DNA from: Bifidobacterium sp. ESL0769
Lineage (GTDB): Bacteria > Actinomycetota > Actinomycetes > Actinomycetales > Bifidobacteriaceae
Length of the DNA: 64,000 bases
Reading direction: 5' to 3'
NCBI RefSeq assembly: GCF_029395495.1
Contig: NZ_CP113918.1
Coordinates: forward strand, 1,302,001 to 1,366,000
The position numbers were made by a program, and so were the translations under genes. Shown here piece by piece: positions 38,598 to 46,419 of the stretch; the stretch's first letter is position 1; every line of letters starts with the position of its first letter. The notes under the pieces are model-generated. The model worked only from the letters and a program-made list of their open reading frames with translations, searched no databases and had not been told where the DNA came from.

Positions 38598-40292
38598 TCA
38601 CTTCGTCAGGTTCTCGTAGATGATGTTGTTGCTCCAATCCATACCGAAGCCCTTGATGGCCTTGTCGGCGACGCCATGCGCATTATTGTAATACAGTGGG
38701 ACCACTGGCAGATCCTTCAGGATGATGGCTTGGGATTCCTGATAGATCTTGTTGGCCTCGGCGGTCGATTTGGCCGCGTAGGCCTTGTCCATGTAGACAT
38801 CGAAATCGGGGTTGATGTAGTCCGTATCGTTGGCGCCGGCGCCGTGGGCCGTGCGCGTGTCGAAATGCTGGAAGAGATACGCCTCGGGCGAGGGATATTC
38901 CGGCGTCCAATCGTATCGGGTCGCGCCCACGACTTTTCTGGCCTCCACCGCGCTGCGGTATTCCTTGAAGGTCGGCATCGGGTTGGTTTTGACCTCGAGA
39001 CCTATCGTGTTCTTGATCGAGTTGGCGATGGCGTCGTAGACGGGCTTGAGCCCGCTGTCGGAATTATAGGTGATGACCAGCGGATCGGTGTCTTTGGAAA
39101 TGGCTTCGGCCTTCGCCCAAAGCTCCCTGGCTTTCTTCGGGTTGTAATTGAGCACGTCGTTGCCGGGCAGGTTGGGCGAATAGCCAGGAACCAGCGGCGA
39201 GGTGAATTCACGGGCCGGGGTGGCCGTACCGTAAAGAATCTTGTTGATGATGTTCTTGCGGTCGATCGCCATGGAAACCGCTTGGCGGCGCAGCGTCCCC
39301 TCTTCGGTTCTGGCCACGAAATGCGGCAGGCGGGAGGTCAGCCCAAGCATGGAAAGACGCGAACCGGGTTTGTTGTAGGCGGTGACCTGAGGGTCGGTTT
39401 TGAAGGATTTGGAATCCGCGGCAGGCACGATCTCCATCACGTCAAGCTGACCGCCCTGCACGTCGGAGTATGCGGCTTGGTCCGAGGTATAGACCTTGAA
39501 GGTGACGCCGGCGTTCTTGACCATGCGCCCGCCATGATAATACGGGTTCTTCACCAGTTTGATGGACGCATCATGGTCCCAGCTGACGAACTTATAGGGA
39601 CCATTGCCGACGGGATGCTGGCCGAATCCCTTCGGATCCTTGAAGAACGCATCGGGAAGCGGCGAAAACGCCGAGCAGCCGATCTTGATCGGGAATGTGG
39701 CGTCGGGATGCTCCAGATCGACGGTGAAGGTCCTGTCGTCAACGACGGAAAGCCCGGAAAGCTGTTCGTCGCCTTTGAGCTTCGTGGGGTCCTGCAAGTC
39801 CTTGTATCCTTTGATGGTCGTCAGGTACGAGGTTCCCTTCTGCGCATCCTTCGCGTTGGCGGTATAGCTCCAGGCGCGCGTGAACGATTTCGCGGTCACC
39901 GGCGTGCCGTCACTGAATTTCCATCCGTCTTTGAGTCTGATGGTGTACTTTTGTAGCGTTGCGTCGGGCTTGATCGACTCCGCGACCTCATTAACGGCCT
40001 TACCGTTGGGCTCGAATCGCACCAGTTGGGAGAAGAGCAGGCCAATCGGCTTGCCACCGCCGGTTTCGTTGGTATCCCCCGGCACCAGTGGACTCTGTGG
40101 CTCAGTGTCATAGGCGGTGATGGTGGCCGTGCCCTTCGCGCCTTCGTTCTTTTTGGAGTCGTTGCTCCCGTTGCCACATGCCGATAGCAGACTTGCGCAA
40201 AGCGCCAAAGCCAGACCGGCCGCGATCGCCTTGCCGCCACGTTTACCCGCGAGCGCCAATGTCTGCCGCATCTTGCTGTTTCGTAAATCCAT
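38598..40292 (-). CDS. Peptide-type ABC transporter substrate-binding lipoprotein (family 5)
   Basis: 564 residues. The lipoprotein signal is a basic start, a hydrophobic core (AIAAGLALALCASLL) and lipobox LSACG, so the mature protein is anchored at Cys. The SBP family 5 core includes KYTIRLKDGWKFSDGTPVTA, FTRAWSYTANAKDAQKG, AVSMAIDRKNIINKILYGTA and the late segment DWTPEYPSPEAYLFQHFDT. It should bind oligopeptides. No permease or ATPase genes adjoin it, so it must work with components encoded elsewhere. Its leader (40465-40700) carries a Trp-rich peptide and attenuator. ATG at 40292 has ACGGA seven bases upstream; ATG at 40271 is an alternative. Confidence 0.9.
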   Translation of the reverse strand: MDLRNSKMRQTLALAGKRGGKAIAAGLALALCASLLSACGNGSNDSKKNEGAKGTATITAYDTEPQSPLVPGDTNETGGGKPIGLLFSQLVRFEPNGKAVNEVAESIKPDATLQKYTIRLKDGWKFSDGTPVTAKSFTRAWSYTANAKDAQKGTSYLTTIKGYKDLQDPTKLKGDEQLSGLSVVDDRTFTVDLEHPDATFPIKIGCSAFSPLPDAFFKDPKGFGQHPVGNGPYKFVSWDHDASIKLVKNPYYHGGRMVKNAGVTFKVYTSDQAAYSDVQGGQLDVMEIVPAADSKSFKTDPQVTAYNKPGSRLSMLGLTSRLPHFVARTEEGTLRRQAVSMAIDRKNIINKILYGTATPAREFTSPLVPGYSPNLPGNDVLNYNPKKARELWAKAEAISKDTDPLVITYNSDSGLKPVYDAIANSIKNTIGLEVKTNPMPTFKEYRSAVEARKVVGATRYDWTPEYPSPEAYLFQHFDTRTAHGAGANDTDYINPDFDVYMDKAYAAKSTAEANKIYQESQAIILKDLPVVPLYYNNAHGVADKAIKGFGMDWSNNIIYENLTK

Positions 40293-40464
40293 CACTATAT
40301 CCGTTTCTCTTGTCGTTTCCTGCTTTTCTCTGGATCGTTTCCCGTTTCCGGCATCACCGCCGCCAACCTCCGTTGACACTCCGAAATACCGATGCATTCA
40401 TATATCGACCAACTCACACCTCCTTTCCACTCCGAACACTTCCTATTACCGCACCCGCCAAACC

Positions 40465-40560
40465 AATAAAAATGGGATGAACCACGACTGTGATTCATCC
40501 CATTAATCGACACCGGAACCACAGGTTTTGAACACAACCTGTGACCGACAAGCGGGGCAG
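40465..40560 (-). promoter_or_regulatory. Trp-type transcription attenuator (alternative hairpins and terminator)
   Basis: On the minus strand after the leader stop, three pairings are visible. A Rho-independent terminator pairs AATGGGATGAA (40504-40494) with TTCATCCCATT (40481-40471), then TTTATT. An alternative hairpin pairs CTGTGGTTC (40524-40516) with GAATCACAG (40496-40488) and would destroy the terminator. A third pairs CACAGGTT (40543-40536) with AACCTGTG (40527-40520) and would sequester the anti-terminator strand. GGCAG inside the Trp codons can also pair with CTGCC (40560-40556). Mutually exclusive helices plus a Trp-rich leader peptide are the hallmark of ribosome-mediated attenuation. 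Confidence 0.8.
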
Positions 40561-40565
40561 ATTGT

Positions 40566-40700
40566 TTATCTGTGCCACCACTGCCAGTTGTCGTTATTGG
40601 TATTGTTGCAATCAGAGTTTGCCAAGACCTGTACGATAGCGCGCTGAAGAGAGAGCGCCGCACCACGACGTCCCCCATTGAAACGCATCCGTTCCATCAT
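40566..40700 (-). CDS. Tryptophan-rich leader peptide
   Basis: A 44-residue reading from the ATGATG at 40700, preceded by AGGGTGG, ends DNWQWWHR followed by TAA. Three Trp codons (40586-40584, 40580-40578, 40577-40575) sit three to six codons before the stop, and the stop is immediately followed by the attenuator hairpins. A longer in-frame reading from 40784 exists and contains two more Trp codons; internal starts at 40697 and 40688 are also possible. This matches the trpL principle, in which scarce charged tRNA-Trp stalls the ribosome and allows readthrough. The downstream gene is a peptide-binding protein. Confidence 0.7.
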   Translation of the reverse strand: MMERMRFNGGRRGAALSLQRAIVQVLANSDCNNTNNDNWQWWHR

Positions 40701-40805
40701 CAACCACCCTGACTGTCTATATTCTTCTTTGCCGGTAACAAGCCAAATTCCCTGTATGCCGAAAGTTCTGATATTTTTCACCATACTCAGGCAATCGCCG
40801 CGTCA

Positions 40806-40836
40806 ATCCATATGTCCACAATCCGGACATACGGAT
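40806..40836. promoter_or_regulatory. Dyad operator upstream of the Trp-attenuated transcript
   Basis: ATCCATATGTCC (40806-40817) and GGACATACGGAT (40825-40836) form an 11 of 12 bp dyad with a 7-nt centre. Next to it on the minus strand is TTGACG (40804-40799), a plausible -35, so a repressor bound here could control the leader transcript. The cognate regulator is unknown. Confidence 0.5.
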
Positions 40837-40903
40837 ATCCGTAGCTCCGCTCATTCTAACAGGAGGCAGAGAACCACAAACGAACGATACTTGCCGTTCT
40901 CGT

Positions 40904-43474
40904 TCAGCTCAACCCGTCGTTAGTGACGCGGTAATCCACAAAGACCACCTCTCCGCTTTCCTGCGTGGCGTCGAGGTCGACAGTGCCGGTGATAGCCCAG
41001 TCGTGGTCGCCATCGGAATCGTCGATGATCTGCCGCACCTTCCACGTGTGCTCCTTGACCTCGTTGCTGTCGTCCAAGATGAACAGCTTTCCGCTGCGGG
41101 CCTTCTGGTCGATGCCGACGTATTCGTGCTCGTCGTAGTAATCGTCGAGCGCGTCCTCCCACTCGTGCACGCCGTAGCCCCAGCCCTTGTCGAGTGAGCC
41201 GAGCTCTTCCGGCCTGTCCTGATCCATCAGCTGGATACGGCGGAACATGGCGTTGCGGATGAGCACGATGAGTCCTCGTCTGTCCTCCACCACTGCAGCT
41301 TTGCCACCAGGAGCGGCGGTCGATAGCGCGGTATTTTCGGCATCGGCAGCGGCTTCGTTCCCGGCATTCTCCCATTCGTCGACCAGGCTGGAATCGACGG
41401 AACGCACAACCACGCGCAACCACGAGATGATGTCTTCAAGCTCGTCGTTGCGTTTCTCGACGGGAACCGTGCGGGCCAGTGAGCGGTAGGCATCGGAAAG
41501 GTAACGCAACAGCGTGCCTTCGCTCCGCGCGATGTTGTAGCGGGCGATATAGCCGGTGAAATCGCTGGCCGTCTCTACCATGTCGCGTACCACAGATTTA
41601 GGACTCAACTCATAATCGTTGGCCCACGGCACATCGTGGCGGTACTCGTCGAAGGCGGCATCAAGCATTTCCTCGAGCGGCTTGGGCCAAGTGACTTCCT
41701 GCAGCTTGTCAATGCGCTCGTCATAGTCGAGCCCATCGGCCTTCATCTCGGCCATCGCCTTGTCACGCGCCTGCCGTTGCTGGGCTTTCAAGACCTGCTT
41801 GGGGTCTTCGAGCGTTGCTTCGACCATAGAGATGACGTCAAGTGCGTAGGTGTCGGATTCTGGATCGAGCAGTTCCAGCGCTGCCAAGAGGAACGGCGAA
41901 AGCGGCTGGTCGAGCGCGAAGTTGTCCGGCACATCGACAGCCAGGAAATAATCCTTGCCACCGCGACCGTTATCTTCGGCCTCAATGAATGACGAGTCGA
42001 ACATGGTCTGGAAGATTTCGTCAGCGCGTTCGTGCAGGTGTTCCTTCTGCTCCGGTGTCTGCGTGGAATCATCAATGAGTTTGTCGATGCGGGCACGAGC
42101 GTCACCGCCCTGCGCCACTTCGTTCAGCACCATGGAATGGCTGATTTTCATATGTGGCACGAGCGTTTCGGGCGCAGCTTCGATGAGCTTGTCGAACGTG
42201 CCTTCATTCCACGTAACGAAGCCTTCCTGCGGCTTCTTGCGCTTGATTTTCTTAAGCTTCTTCGGGTCGCCGTTGGCCTTGGCGATGGCACGCGCGTTCT
42301 CGATTTCAAATTCGGGAGCCTCAGCCACCACTAGTCCTTCGGTATCGAAGCCCATACGCCCGGCACGTCCGGCGATCTGGTGGAATTCACGGGCGCGCAG
42401 CTTGCGCATCTTGAATCCGTCGAATTTGGTGAGCTGGGTAAGCACGACGGAATGAATCGGCACGTTGATACCGACGCCCAACGTATCGGTTCCGCAGATG
42501 ACCGGCAAAAGTCCCTGTTGTGCAAGCTGTTCAACAAGTCTGCGATAACGCGGCAACATGCCTGCGTGGTGGATACCGACGCCGGTGCGCAGCAGCCGTT
42601 GCAAAATCTTACCGAATGCCGTGGTGAAGCGTGTCCCTTTGATGGCTTCGCTGATGGCCTTGCGCTGCTCCTTGCTGGAGACGCCGGTGCTGGCGAGCGC
42701 CTGCGCGGTTTCGAGCGCCGCGTCCTGCGAGAAGTGCACAACATAAATAGGGGTATCACCGCGGTTGAAAAGCAGTTCGACGGTGCCGGCTAGTTGCTTG
42801 TCGGTGTATTCATAGCTCAGCGGCACTGGCCTCGGCGCGTCGTCGATGACGTCCACATCTCTCCGTGTCATGTCTTCGAGCTTGTCGGCGATGGCGGTGA
42901 CATTGCCAAGCGTCGCGCTCATCAGCAGGAACTGCGTCTTGGGCAGCGTCAGCAGCGGCACCTGCCAGGCCCACCCGCGGTCGGCATCGCCATAATAGTG
43001 GAATTCATCCATCGCCACGCAGCCAATGTCGGCATTCACTCCCTCACGTAACGCCTGATTGGCCAGAATCTCGGCGGTACAGCAGATAATCGGGGCATCC
43101 GAATTGATGCTGGTATCCCCCGTGATCATGCCAACATTGTCGCGCCCGAACGCCTCTACCAGATCAAAAAACTTCTCGCTCACCAACGCCTTGATGGGAG
43201 CCGTGTAATAGGAACGCCGCCCTGTGCACAACGCCGCGAAATGCATGCCCAGAGCCACCAGCGACTTCCCAGACCCAGTCGGCGTGCTCAGGATGACATG
43301 GTCGCCAGCCAGCAAATCCATGACCGCTTCTTCCTGATGCGGCCAAGGGTCAATCCCCTTGACATCCTTCACCCATTCGAAAAATCTGTCATAAATTTCA
43401 TCGGCATCGATATTGTGTTTCTCATCCCCGCTGCCATCCCAGCTAGGTGCCAATTCCCCTAAACTCTGTGTCAT
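40904..43474 (-). CDS. Ski2-like DExH-box helicase with DUF3516 domain
   Basis: 856 residues. Superfamily 2 motifs are present: TPTGSGKSLVALG (motif I, about 63-75), YYTAPIKALVSEKFF (Ia), VAMDEFHYYGDADRGWAW (motif II, DEFH), LMSATLGN (III), HHAGMLPRYRRLVEQLA, VICGTDTLGVGINVPIH (V) and HQIAGRAGRMGFDTEG (VI). The C-terminal about 400 residues correspond to DUF3516, typical of actinobacteria. It is probably an ATP-dependent RNA or DNA unwinding enzyme in the Mtr4/Ski2 class; the substrate is not known. ATG at 43474 follows GGGG at short distance. It ends near the start of the Trp-attenuated transcript, with about 70 nt between. Confidence 0.9.
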   Translation of the reverse strand: MTQSLGELAPSWDGSGDEKHNIDADEIYDRFFEWVKDVKGIDPWPHQEEAVMDLLAGDHVILSTPTGSGKSLVALGMHFAALCTGRRSYYTAPIKALVSEKFFDLVEAFGRDNVGMITGDTSINSDAPIICCTAEILANQALREGVNADIGCVAMDEFHYYGDADRGWAWQVPLLTLPKTQFLLMSATLGNVTAIADKLEDMTRRDVDVIDDAPRPVPLSYEYTDKQLAGTVELLFNRGDTPIYVVHFSQDAALETAQALASTGVSSKEQRKAISEAIKGTRFTTAFGKILQRLLRTGVGIHHAGMLPRYRRLVEQLAQQGLLPVICGTDTLGVGINVPIHSVVLTQLTKFDGFKMRKLRAREFHQIAGRAGRMGFDTEGLVVAEAPEFEIENARAIAKANGDPKKLKKIKRKKPQEGFVTWNEGTFDKLIEAAPETLVPHMKISHSMVLNEVAQGGDARARIDKLIDDSTQTPEQKEHLHERADEIFQTMFDSSFIEAEDNGRGGKDYFLAVDVPDNFALDQPLSPFLLAALELLDPESDTYALDVISMVEATLEDPKQVLKAQQRQARDKAMAEMKADGLDYDERIDKLQEVTWPKPLEEMLDAAFDEYRHDVPWANDYELSPKSVVRDMVETASDFTGYIARYNIARSEGTLLRYLSDAYRSLARTVPVEKRNDELEDIISWLRVVVRSVDSSLVDEWENAGNEAAADAENTALSTAAPGGKAAVVEDRRGLIVLIRNAMFRRIQLMDQDRPEELGSLDKGWGYGVHEWEDALDDYYDEHEYVGIDQKARSGKLFILDDSNEVKEHTWKVRQIIDDSDGDHDWAITGTVDLDATQESGEVVFVDYRVTNDGLS

Positions 43475-43743: not shown

Positions 43744-44886
43744 CTACTTATTATCCTTATACTCGCCGGGTTTGTCTCCATGCGGATGTGACTTGCGGTG
43801 CGGATGCGGGATGTCGGGAAGCTCGATGTGATCGGCTTCCTTTTCACTACCCGGATGCGTGGCGTCATAACCCTGCATGTAACGGGTCTGCCTCCAGTGA
43901 TGCACGGAAGCGTTGGTGCCGCGATGATGGATGTGGTATTGGCCTGGCGCACCGCCGTAGCGATCCTCGCCCAGCTCCTTGGCCACCGCGATCTGGTTGA
44001 CGTTCGAAGCATCCATGATGGCGATTGGCGCGACAGGCTCCGGCTCGGCCGGAGCGGCGGTACGGGCCTGCATACGGCTCGGGAGCCATTCTGCGAGCTT
44101 GGAAAGCAGTGCGCAGACGATGAAGTAGACCACGCCGGCAACCACCAACGTTTGCAGGATGTTGAAGTACATCGAGCCCAGACGGCGGGATTCCTGCAGC
44201 AGATCCGTATACATGATGATGGAGCCCAACGCCGTATCCTTCAACACCACGACCAGCTGGGTGACGGCGGCAGGCAGCATCGCGTAGATGGCCTGCGGCA
44301 CTTCGATCTGCATCAGCGACTGCGTGGTGGTCAGGCCCAAGGCCAGCGAGGCCTCGCGCTGTCCGCCTGGCAGATTGCCGACACCGCTTCGCACAAGTTC
44401 CGCGACCACAGAGCCGTTGTAGAGAATCAAGCCAAGCACCACGGCCCAGTAGGAGGCGCTCTGGATGCCCATGAAGGAGAACAGCCGCCAGAAGAAGATC
44501 ATGAACATAAGCACCGGCACCGCGCGGCAGAATTCGACGATGACGCCGGAGACTGTTCGCACGATCCTGCTCGGCAGAAGCCTGCCAATACCGAAAATGA
44601 GACCGAACACGACAGACCCGATAACGGCGAGCACAGCCGCCTTGAGGGTCATCCACAGGCCCGGCAAGTAGAAGTCCGTCCAGGCCTCGCCGTCGAGCGC
44701 CGGCTTCCACAGCGCCCAGTCAAGCTGGTTCTCGCCGTCCGGCGGGTTGTGCAGGCGCATGAGGATCAGCACCACGAGAATGGCCACGATGATGCCGCCA
44801 ATCCAGTTGGCGATGCGAATGTTGCGTTTGCCTTTCGGCCCCGGCTCATCGAAGAGCACGGACGATTCATTGTTGTTCTTGCTCAT
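43744..44886 (-). CDS. gluD: Glutamate-type ABC transporter permease with His-rich tail
   Basis: 380 residues. The N-terminal cytoplasmic part is followed by a first helix (IGGIIVAILVVLILMRL), an external segment, and the HisM-type permease core: YLPGLWMTLKAAVLAVIGSV, EFCRAVPVLMFMIFFWRLFS, and the EAA loop REASLALGLTTTQSLMQIEV. About 110 hydrophilic residues follow the last helix, ending in clusters such as QYHIHHRGTN and PHPHRKSHPHGDK, an unusual His-rich tail. AGAGGTG lies five bases before ATG at 44886, four bases after the gluC stop. With gluA, B and C it forms a glutamate/polar amino acid importer. Confidence 0.88.
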   Translation of the reverse strand: MSKNNNESSVLFDEPGPKGKRNIRIANWIGGIIVAILVVLILMRLHNPPDGENQLDWALWKPALDGEAWTDFYLPGLWMTLKAAVLAVIGSVVFGLIFGIGRLLPSRIVRTVSGVIVEFCRAVPVLMFMIFFWRLFSFMGIQSASYWAVVLGLILYNGSVVAELVRSGVGNLPGGQREASLALGLTTTQSLMQIEVPQAIYAMLPAAVTQLVVVLKDTALGSIIMYTDLLQESRRLGSMYFNILQTLVVAGVVYFIVCALLSKLAEWLPSRMQARTAAPAEPEPVAPIAIMDASNVNQIAVAKELGEDRYGGAPGQYHIHHRGTNASVHHWRQTRYMQGYDATHPGSEKEADHIELPDIPHPHRKSHPHGDKPGEYKDNK

Positions 44887-44890
44887 GCGT

Positions 44891-45568
44891 TCACCTCTGT
44901 ACCGCAAGTTTGTTGGAAAGGAACGTGGTCAGCGCCCCGATGGGAATGATCAGGATGACGTAGCCGAACGCGAAAATCAGGAAGATGGCAACGATGGAAT
45001 TCGCGTGGAATTCGATCATCTCGCTCATCAGGCTGGACGTTTCGGTGGCCACCGACGCCGCGGCCGCAACCGTCGAATTCTTGAGCAATGCGATCAGCGT
45101 GTTGCCCAGGGGCGCCACGGAACCGCGGAAGGCCTGAGGCAGGATGATTTGCGTGGCCGACTGCATGAAGTTGAGTCCCAGCGCACGTGCCGCTTCGGCC
45201 TGGCCCAGCGGAACGGTGTTGATACCGGAACGCAATGATTCGCAGACGAACGCCGCCGTGTAGAGCGAAAGGCCGGTGACTGCAAGCCAGAAGAAGTTCG
45301 TGGCGAAGGTGTTGGAGAACGTAAGTTTGAGCTGTGCAAAAGCACCAAGCACCATGAAGACCATGATGATGGTCAATGGCATGTTCTTGAAGAACTCGAC
45401 GTAGGCGCTTGCCACAGTGCGCAGCGAGGATATCGGCGAGATGCGCATCATCAGTAGGATGACGCCAAGAATCAGAGAGAACAGCGCGGACCAGAGTGTC
45501 AGCTCGATGTTGACGAGGAAGGCGCCCGGCACATTGTATTGGCTGAACAATTGCATGAGTTCATTCAT
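44891..45568 (-). CDS. gluC: Glutamate-type ABC transporter permease
   Basis: 225 residues with about five membrane helices. Opening MNELMQLFSQYNVPGAFLVN, it shows NIELTLWSALFSLILGVILL, EFFKNMPLTIIMVFMVLGAF and the EAA coupling loop QAEAARALGLNFMQSATQII. It is the standard-length partner of gluD in the polar amino acid family. GGGAG precedes ATG, and ATGA overlaps the gluB stop by four bases, so translation is coupled. Confidence 0.9.
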   Translation of the reverse strand: MNELMQLFSQYNVPGAFLVNIELTLWSALFSLILGVILLMMRISPISSLRTVASAYVEFFKNMPLTIIMVFMVLGAFAQLKLTFSNTFATNFFWLAVTGLSLYTAAFVCESLRSGINTVPLGQAEAARALGLNFMQSATQIILPQAFRGSVAPLGNTLIALLKNSTVAAAASVATETSSLMSEMIEFHANSIVAIFLIFAFGYVILIIPIGALTTFLSNKLAVQR

Positions 45569-46419
45569 TTCGCGGCTCCCGTCTCTCCCAGGTCCGGCTT
45601 GGGCGGATTGTATTTCATATTCGGCTTATATTTCACACCACGCGTGTTGTCGTTGATGTAGCGCTGCCAGGAACCATCCTTTTCCATCTGGGCGATGGCC
45701 TTGTCGATTTTCTTGGCGAATTTGATATTGCCCTTCTTGACCCCGACACCGTAATATTCCTGCGTGAAGGGCTTGCCGATCAGGCGCAACCTGCCACGCG
45801 CGTTGGAGGCGAGGCCGGCGAGGATGATGTCATCAGTCGTCACCGCGTCGACGATGCCGCTGAATAGGGCCGTCGCGCATTCAGCGTAACCCGGCTGTTC
45901 CATCAGCTGCACTTTGGAGGCGAACTTCTGCTTGACTACTTCGGCTGACGTTGAGCCGGTCACCGAACAGAGACGTTTGCCATTGAGACTGTCGGGGCCG
46001 GTAATCTCGTGGTCGTCTTTGCGGACCATAAGGTCCTGCCCAGCCACGAAATACGGCCCGGCGAAGCTGACGGCCTTCTTGCGCTCGTCGGTGATGGAAT
46101 AGCTGGCGACGATCATGTCGACGTCACCGTTCTGCAGCATGGCTTCACGCTGCTTGCTTGGCGCTTCCTTCCAGACAATCTCGTCGTCCGAATAACCCAG
46201 CTTGCGGGCGATGTAGCGCGCCACGTCCACGTCGAAGCCGACGTAGGTGCCGGATTTCTTGAAGCCGACGCCAGGCTGGTCAAATTTGATGCCGATACGG
46301 ATCTTGCCCGCCTCATTGCTTGAGCCGCACGCGGCTACGGTGAACACGCATGCCAACGCGCAGAAGGCCGCGAGGACCCTGCGCCAAACGCGCGAAAGAT
46401 GATTGAATGATGGTTTCAT
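45565..46419 (-). CDS. gluB: Glutamate-binding lipoprotein (SBP family 3)
   Basis: 284 residues. The signal peptide has a basic start and the core VLAAFCALACVFTV, with lipobox VAACG. The type 3 binding fold includes RIGIKFDQPGVGFK, TYVGFDVDVARYIARKLGY, VDMIVASYSITDERKKAVSF and SVTGSTSAEVVKQKF. This is the classic pattern of glutamate/glutamine-binding proteins. It should deliver glutamate to GluCD at the outer membrane face. AGGAAAG lies about nine bases before ATG. It is separated from gluA by 148 nt and may have its own promoter. Confidence 0.9.
   Translation of the reverse strand: MKPSFNHLSRVWRRVLAAFCALACVFTVAACGSSNEAGKIRIGIKFDQPGVGFKKSGTYVGFDVDVARYIARKLGYSDDEIVWKEAPSKQREAMLQNGDVDMIVASYSITDERKKAVSFAGPYFVAGQDLMVRKDDHEITGPDSLNGKRLCSVTGSTSAEVVKQKFASKVQLMEQPGYAECATALFSGIVDAVTTDDIILAGLASNARGRLRLIGKPFTQEYYGVGVKKGNIKFAKKIDKAIAQMEKDGSWQRYINDNTRGVKYKPNMKYNPPKPDLGETGAAK

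Follow-up and report, generated by a model that had tools for sequence, protein, structure and literature searches.

Upstream of a solitary peptide-binding lipoprotein gene of Bifidobacterium sp. ESL0769, we very likely see a ribosome-mediated transcription attenuator that senses charged tRNA-Trp and controls this gene. The parts of a Trp-codon attenuator and the lipoprotein gene are all present, on the minus strand. In a few Bifidobacterium species, the switch probably turns on a peptide-capturing surface lipoprotein upon Trp shortage. A Trp-codon transcription attenuator had been proposed here by a sequence-only reading, and it is well supported by the anatomy of the leader, by its conservation in a diverged ortholog and by folding as a function of the stall position.

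The DNA studied, called the window below, comprises 64,000 nt (assembly GCF_029395495.1, contig NZ_CP113918.1, positions 1,302,001-1,366,000); coordinates refer to the window unless stated otherwise. It was compared with 112 genomes of the genus Bifidobacterium and 189 of the Bifidobacteriaceae. G000 denotes the own genome, G093 that of Bifidobacterium sp. ESL0763 and G085 the third leader-bearing genome.

Anatomy and conservation of the leader

The leader peptide ending in NWQWWHR-stop, as originally read, is present on the minus strand (open reading frame 40700/40697-40566). The frame was borne out but its start was shifted, since the ATG common to the three orthologs lies at 40697 and not at 40700. 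Trp codons cluster near the leader stop in each ortholog, where the peptide ends in WQWWH(R/S)*. Between G000 and G085, leader changes fall on codon positions 1, 2 and 3 in 11, 6 and 9 cases; overall, the peptide is without coding constraint in this comparison, which is expected if the Trp codons alone matter.

The RNA contains six segments that pair either as 1:2, 3:4 and 5:6, the last being an intrinsic terminator, or as 2:3 and 4:5, the antiterminator (Table 1). Three hairpins had been described as mutually exclusive. All three exist, but 1:2, 3:4 and 5:6 are compatible with each other; what excludes them is the formation of 2:3 and 4:5.

Table 1. Positions of the leader elements, the lipoprotein gene and the T-box-like RNAs
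Feature	Position	Strand	Basis or property
Leader peptide ORF MERMRFNGGRRGAALSLQRAIVQVLANSDCNNTNNDNWQWWHR*, 43 codons + stop	40566..40697	-	ATG aligned in 3/3 orthologs, no indel over 43 codons
Sensor codons TGG CAG TGG TGG (W Q W W)	40575..40586	-	identical in 3/3 orthologs
Hairpin 1:2 (Trp codons, leader stop, segment 2)	40545..40587	-	-18.9 kcal/mol
Segment 2 (ACAATCTG), partner of segment 3 under Trp-codon stall	40558..40565	-	folding
Segment 3 (CGGTCACAGGTTGT), pairs with segment 2 (antitermination) or 4 (termination)	40534..40547	-	folding, alignment
Segment 4 (core CTGTGGTTC, 40524-40516), pairs with segment 3 or 5	40514..40527	-	folding, shuffles
Segment 5, terminator 5' arm; pairs with segment 4 under antitermination	40490..40504	-	folding
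Segment 6 (terminator 3' arm, 40485-40471) and T-rich tail	40465..40485	-	terminator scan
Conserved block downstream of the terminator and upstream of the SBP gene: AAAGGAGGTG (40426-40417), GTTGGTCGATATATGAA (40413-40397)	40397..40426	-	ortholog alignment
Family-5 solute-binding lipoprotein (PF00496), 564 aa	38598..40292	-	profile match; orthologs at same place
T-box-like leaders before trpE	L145:3742-3992 (G000:C1 347741-347991); L146:3752-3996; L147:4704-4949; L148:3531-3774		RF00230, 64-78 bits

The proposed terminator with U-tract was found as a stem of 15 pairs (40504-40471, minus strand) followed by T-rich sequence. It is kept between leader and gene in all three orthologs, with energies from -20.1 to -26.5 kcal/mol. 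When the terminator columns of G000 and G093 are compared, 11 pairs are unchanged, one is changed on one side, two on both sides and none is broken. The other helices contain broken pairs in the same comparison: 4 of 17 in 1:2, 4 of 12 in 3:4 and 7 of 23 in the antitermination state. Upon folding, both 1:2 and 2:3 of G093 use partly other pairs; within segment 3, CGGTCACAG is identical in the three orthologs. Given this poor covariation outside the terminator, the argument rests on the independent folding of each leader.

The leader, its three Trp codons and the terminator are kept at the same place in all three orthologs of the solute-binding lipoprotein (SBP). In the leader region, 99 consecutive bases of G000 and G085 are identical, so that there are in effect two independent leaders and G093 is the sole independent comparison. 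The expectation that the same leader would precede orthologous SBP genes held for the close orthologs, the own genome included (3/3), but not for distant ones. In the 700 bases upstream of 27 further SBP genes from the genus (a single one from each genome, taken from the best-scoring places with an available locus), no open reading frame with at least two Trp codons near its stop was found (0/27), nor do the two nearest SBP paralogs of the own genome have such a leader upstream. Exact DNA matches to WQWWH in G002, G007, G024, G029, G035 and G071 were rejected as leaders, the frame continuing for at least 16 codons in each. By eye, many other oppA-like SBP genes of Bifidobacterium (among L088-L114) have a short GC-rich hairpin with a T run some tens of bases before the start (e.g. 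AGGTTGG...CCGGCCTTTTTT), without a leader peptide.

Rfam models for Trp and His leaders gave no match at the gathering score in the whole window, the leader region is without any match at this score, and the T-box model RF00230 likewise found none in the window at this score. The sole Rfam match in the window is an FMN riboswitch (RF00050, 28931-29083, plus strand, 84.4 bits). A sigma-70-type promoter was looked for in 40200-41000 and none was recognised.

The 15-base core TTGGTCGATATATGA of the conserved block downstream of the terminator was found only in the three leader-bearing genomes (among 112). Could this block be a strong Shine-Dalgarno sequence before a very short open reading frame? 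A TGA within it closes a tiny frame (LVDI), which is in frame with the SBP and has no further stop in between in all three genomes. Read-through of this UGA into the SBP is not favoured, since the intervening stretch is without coding constraint (G000 vs G085: changes at codon positions 1, 2 and 3 in 11, 19 and 11 cases, 8 of 35 residues identical).

Dependence of the fold on ribosome position

Successive stretches of the RNA left free beside a ribosome were folded, and the A site was scanned codon by codon with a footprint of +12. In each of the three leaders, a ribosome placed at the leader stop led to 3:4, followed by the terminator 5:6. The same order was obtained without a ribosome in G000 and G093; in G085, 4:5 was preferred over 3:4 until the 3' arm of the terminator was made, after which 3:4 and 5:6 formed. 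Placing the second Trp codon in the A site led to 2:3 and 4:5 as soon as the terminator 5' arm was made; in G085, these outweighed 3:4 only moderately.

The scan located the switch on the codons. Pairing 4:5 was strong at Q-5, W-4 and W-3 in G000 (9.2-9.6 pairs) and G085 (4.5-8.0 pairs) and at S-7 to W-4 in G093 (11.1 pairs), and it was lost (0.0-1.2 pairs) at the subsequent codons up to the stop in all three leaders. At this footprint, a ribosome stalled on the second or the third TGG therefore yields the antiterminator in G000 and G085, and one on the first TGG does not; in G093, the effective codons are the first and the second TGG, the third having no such effect. A footprint of +9 or +15 moved the switching window by one codon. 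Stalls far upstream also favoured 4:5 in G093 (codons -16 to -13, 7.4-10.6 pairs), moderately so in G085 (up to 6.2 pairs) and little in G000 (up to 3.5).

The difference in 4:5 pairs between stall and stop was 9.25, 6.0 and 9.73 in the three leaders, and for each of them none of 400 shuffles reached the observed value. These shuffles keep but rearrange the pairs of 3:4 and 5:6 and shuffle the remainder; the segment boundaries had been chosen after inspection and were the same for the shuffles. By computation, the antiterminator is selected by the ribosome at two of the three Trp codons for a given footprint, weakly in G093 when a general, boundary-free measure is used, which counts any upstream pairing that captures the terminator 5' arm. 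Two bases after the arm, this measure peaked at Q-5 to W-3 with 9.2-9.7 in G000 and 8.6-9.6 in G085, compared with 4.3 and 3.0 at the stop. In G093, it gave 11.5 at S-7 to W-4, 10.0-10.1 at W-3 and H-2 and 7.3 at the stop. G000 and G085 show a clear contrast, G093 a weak to mild one.

E. coli leaders were treated in the same way. In trpL, the general measure stayed near 5 pairs for A-site positions -8 to -3, which include both Trp codons, and gave 4.0 at -2, 0.2 at -1 and 0.0 at the stop. By the simpler measure trpL resembles the Bifidobacterium leaders, its terminator arm being captured under a Trp-codon stall. In hisL, values of 6.6-8.0 at the His codons -8 to -6 stood against 1.1 at the stop when the arm was just made; four bases later, the two states were not resolved (9.0 vs 8.9). 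In the full-length RNA of all five leaders (the three studied here, hisL and trpL), the equilibrium favours the terminator whatever the state, hence the decision must be kinetic.

These computations bear on two other explanations. The hairpin could be a plain intergenic terminator, for example of the upstream helicase transcript, with a Trp-rich open reading frame in front of it by chance. The helicase gene is co-directional, with its end at 40904, a terminator after it would be ordinary, and a simple scan gives 3 terminator-like sites per 801 bases compared with 0.6 per shuffle. We nevertheless regard this as quite improbable, because three species, one of them with diverged surroundings, have retained the Trp codons, the stop and the terminator, and because shuffling that preserves the pairing of both hairpins does not reproduce the dependence on the stall. 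A search of the own genome for TGGTGG...TTTTT, which covers adjacent Trp codons and would miss leaders with spaced ones, listed 95 places belonging to two spacing classes; sequence was available for 60 of these, and 52 are distinct, the leader studied included. Two others of the 52 (L162 and L210) pass a crude filter (stop at most 13 codons away, an open frame not exceeding 70 codons and a hairpin more stable than -12 kcal/mol), which the leader studied itself fails by frame length alone (78 codons).

Trp near the end of the leader peptide is a feature of TnaC as well. If the leader worked by nascent-peptide stalling of this type, free Trp would halt the ribosome at the leader stop and thereby regulate the switch. 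However, a ribosome at the stop favours 3:4 and the terminator in each leader, so that Trp would only strengthen termination; three Trp codons, two of them adjacent, fit codon sensing; and the peptide preceding them lacks coding constraint. We consider this explanation highly improbable.

For the attenuator, we propose the following sequence of events. A ribosome that reaches the leader stop (or, in two of the three leaders, the absence of a ribosome) would allow 3:4 to form and then the terminator 5:6. A ribosome stalled on the Trp codons, presumably because Trp-tRNA(Trp) is scarce, would leave segment 2 free to pair as 2:3; segment 4 would then be free for 4:5 and the polymerase would read through. 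Read-through would raise expression of the SBP, which may deliver Trp-containing peptides or Trp via an Opp-type permease encoded elsewhere, a candidate being, for example, the one beside the SBP paralogs at about 1,566,900-1,574,700 of the genome.

The regulated lipoprotein and its putative ligand

The SBP domain matches PF00496 with an E-value of 4.4e-74 and 250.2 bits (cut-off 32.4). Translation probably starts at 40292. A longer open reading frame of 599 residues starts at ATG 40397, but this ATG is absent in G085 and G093 and the longer frame is therefore probably over-long. The protein contains LLSACG, which we take to be a lipobox-like motif. The gene had been called a solitary SBP gene and not one of trp biosynthesis. 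Its neighbours agree with this: it sits between helicase and amidohydrolase genes in all three leader-bearing genomes, and the trp genes are found elsewhere, behind a T-box-like RNA. Beyond the helicase, at 43744-46419 on the minus strand, lie amino-acid-type ABC genes (an SBP of family 3 and two permeases).

The SBP is narrowly distributed. At an identity of at least 84%, it was found in 3 of 189 Bifidobacteriaceae genomes, i.e. the own genome, G085 (97%) and G093 (84%); the next-best SBPs in the genus and family sets (112 and 189 genomes) are 57-61% identical. Among the best 120 of 1129 matches in 5.8 billion proteins, the only clusters above 62% identity were the query's own and that of the ESL0763 protein. 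The two closest paralogs in the own genome (60 and 57% identity) lie beside genes read as an Opp-type permease and ATPase.

The closest solved relative is the dipeptide-binding lipoprotein DppA (8wd9, 3e-117), presumably from M. tuberculosis. Residue D436 of E. coli DppA is the one to which the peptide's amino group binds (PMC12136057). Upon alignment with this protein, the three leader-bearing SBPs have Glu in place of this Asp. Of the 119 best database homologs, 118 have Asp there, the sole exception being the ESL0763 ortholog itself. R383 of DppA, which binds the carboxyl group of dipeptides, aligns to a gap in the leader-bearing SBPs. The change from Asp to Glu is conservative and does not define the Pfam family, so that binding by the SBP may persist. 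The alignment suggests an oligopeptide-type binder whose anchor is altered in the leader-bearing lineage, and is no proof of a Trp ligand.

Possibly, the attenuator is real but serves a lipoprotein that binds oligopeptides broadly, so that Trp-tRNA would be a proxy for general amino-acid shortage with no particular tie to Trp peptides. Both the DppA relative and the genomic setting of the paralogs fit this, but the Glu of the leader-bearing SBPs hints at a changed ligand; we regard a broad binder as possible, short of probable. We infer that the ligand is Trp or a Trp-containing peptide, to which the Glu lends weak support. The proposal that Trp limitation would trigger the capture of peptides, or of Trp itself, is a reasonable one.

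Relation to known attenuators and to the trp genes

The his operon leader of E. coli works as a six-segment relay, in which 1:2, 3:4 and 5:6 with the terminator alternate with 2:3 and 4:5. The leader described here has the same layout as this RNA (RF00514). It differs in having Trp codons in place of His codons, in its target, a transport lipoprotein, and in the absence of an Rfam match at the gathering score. Leader-peptide attenuation as such is known; a peptide SBP as its target is unusual.

Classical Trp attenuators precede trp operons and trpS genes in Corynebacterium and Streptomyces, as far as the accessible text of PMC1262725 goes. Our leader resembles these actinobacterial trp leaders in its leader peptide with double or triple UGG and in its U-tract terminator. 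The systems named in that text lie before trp operons or trpS, with neither a Trp attenuator of Bifidobacterium nor a transporter target among them. Actinobacterial Trp attenuators are also covered by Korolev et al. 2015, as cited in PMC4833913. In Streptococcus suis, PMC9382623 describes trpXYZ, where a Trp T-box acts on TrpX, a binding protein for Trp uptake, and expression is induced by Trp limitation. Both cases would place a Trp-responsive RNA switch on an uptake binding protein; it is a T-box before an operon with permease and ATPase there, and a leader peptide before a lone family-5 SBP here. For Firmicutes, PMC9413887 reports predicted His attenuators of the leader-peptide type, which would serve genes of his biosynthesis, of transport (hisZYX) or of both; these concern histidine and another phylum, whereas ours concerns tryptophan. 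We found no described Trp attenuator before a peptide SBP in the open-access literature.

The trp cluster of the own genome contains trpA (by family search), trpG, trpC, trpF and trpB (read from translations) and trpE (by motif); trpD was read in the trp cluster of G093. Trp uptake is thus not obligatory. A Trp leader peptide was sought before trpE, and a T-box-like RNA was found instead. It matches RF00230 with 78.1 bits (E 2.7e-17), below the gathering score of 93, as are the RNAs before trpE in G085, G093 and G086 (75.3, 64.4 and 72.9 bits). By reading of the alignment, TGG occupies the aligned specifier position. Biosynthesis of Trp and the SBP therefore appear to be under different RNA sensors.

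A tentative interpretation, to which we give less than even confidence, is a split system of Trp scavenging. The T-box would act on the trp genes, and a duplicated and specialised SBP with the Asp-to-Glu exchange would be under its own six-segment Trp attenuator. Under Trp starvation, the cell would then capture Trp, or peptides that contain it and perhaps have an unusual N-terminus, and pass them to a shared Opp permease. If true, the reach of leader-peptide attenuation extends beyond biosynthesis to a single lipoprotein for nutrient capture, synthesis and uptake of one amino acid are divided in a single genome between two unrelated RNA sensors, and leader codons cheaply predict the ligand of an orphan binding protein.

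Two further observations concern the trp genes. TrpA of 14 genomes, including the four with the T-box-like leader, scores 273-290 bits compared with 220-246 in the other 83 genomes of the genus in which TrpA occurs, which suggests that the genes may have been exchanged. The trpE frame of G086 (L148:3816-4709) is open for about 300 codons vs 530-560 in G000, G085 and G093, and is possibly a broken or split gene.
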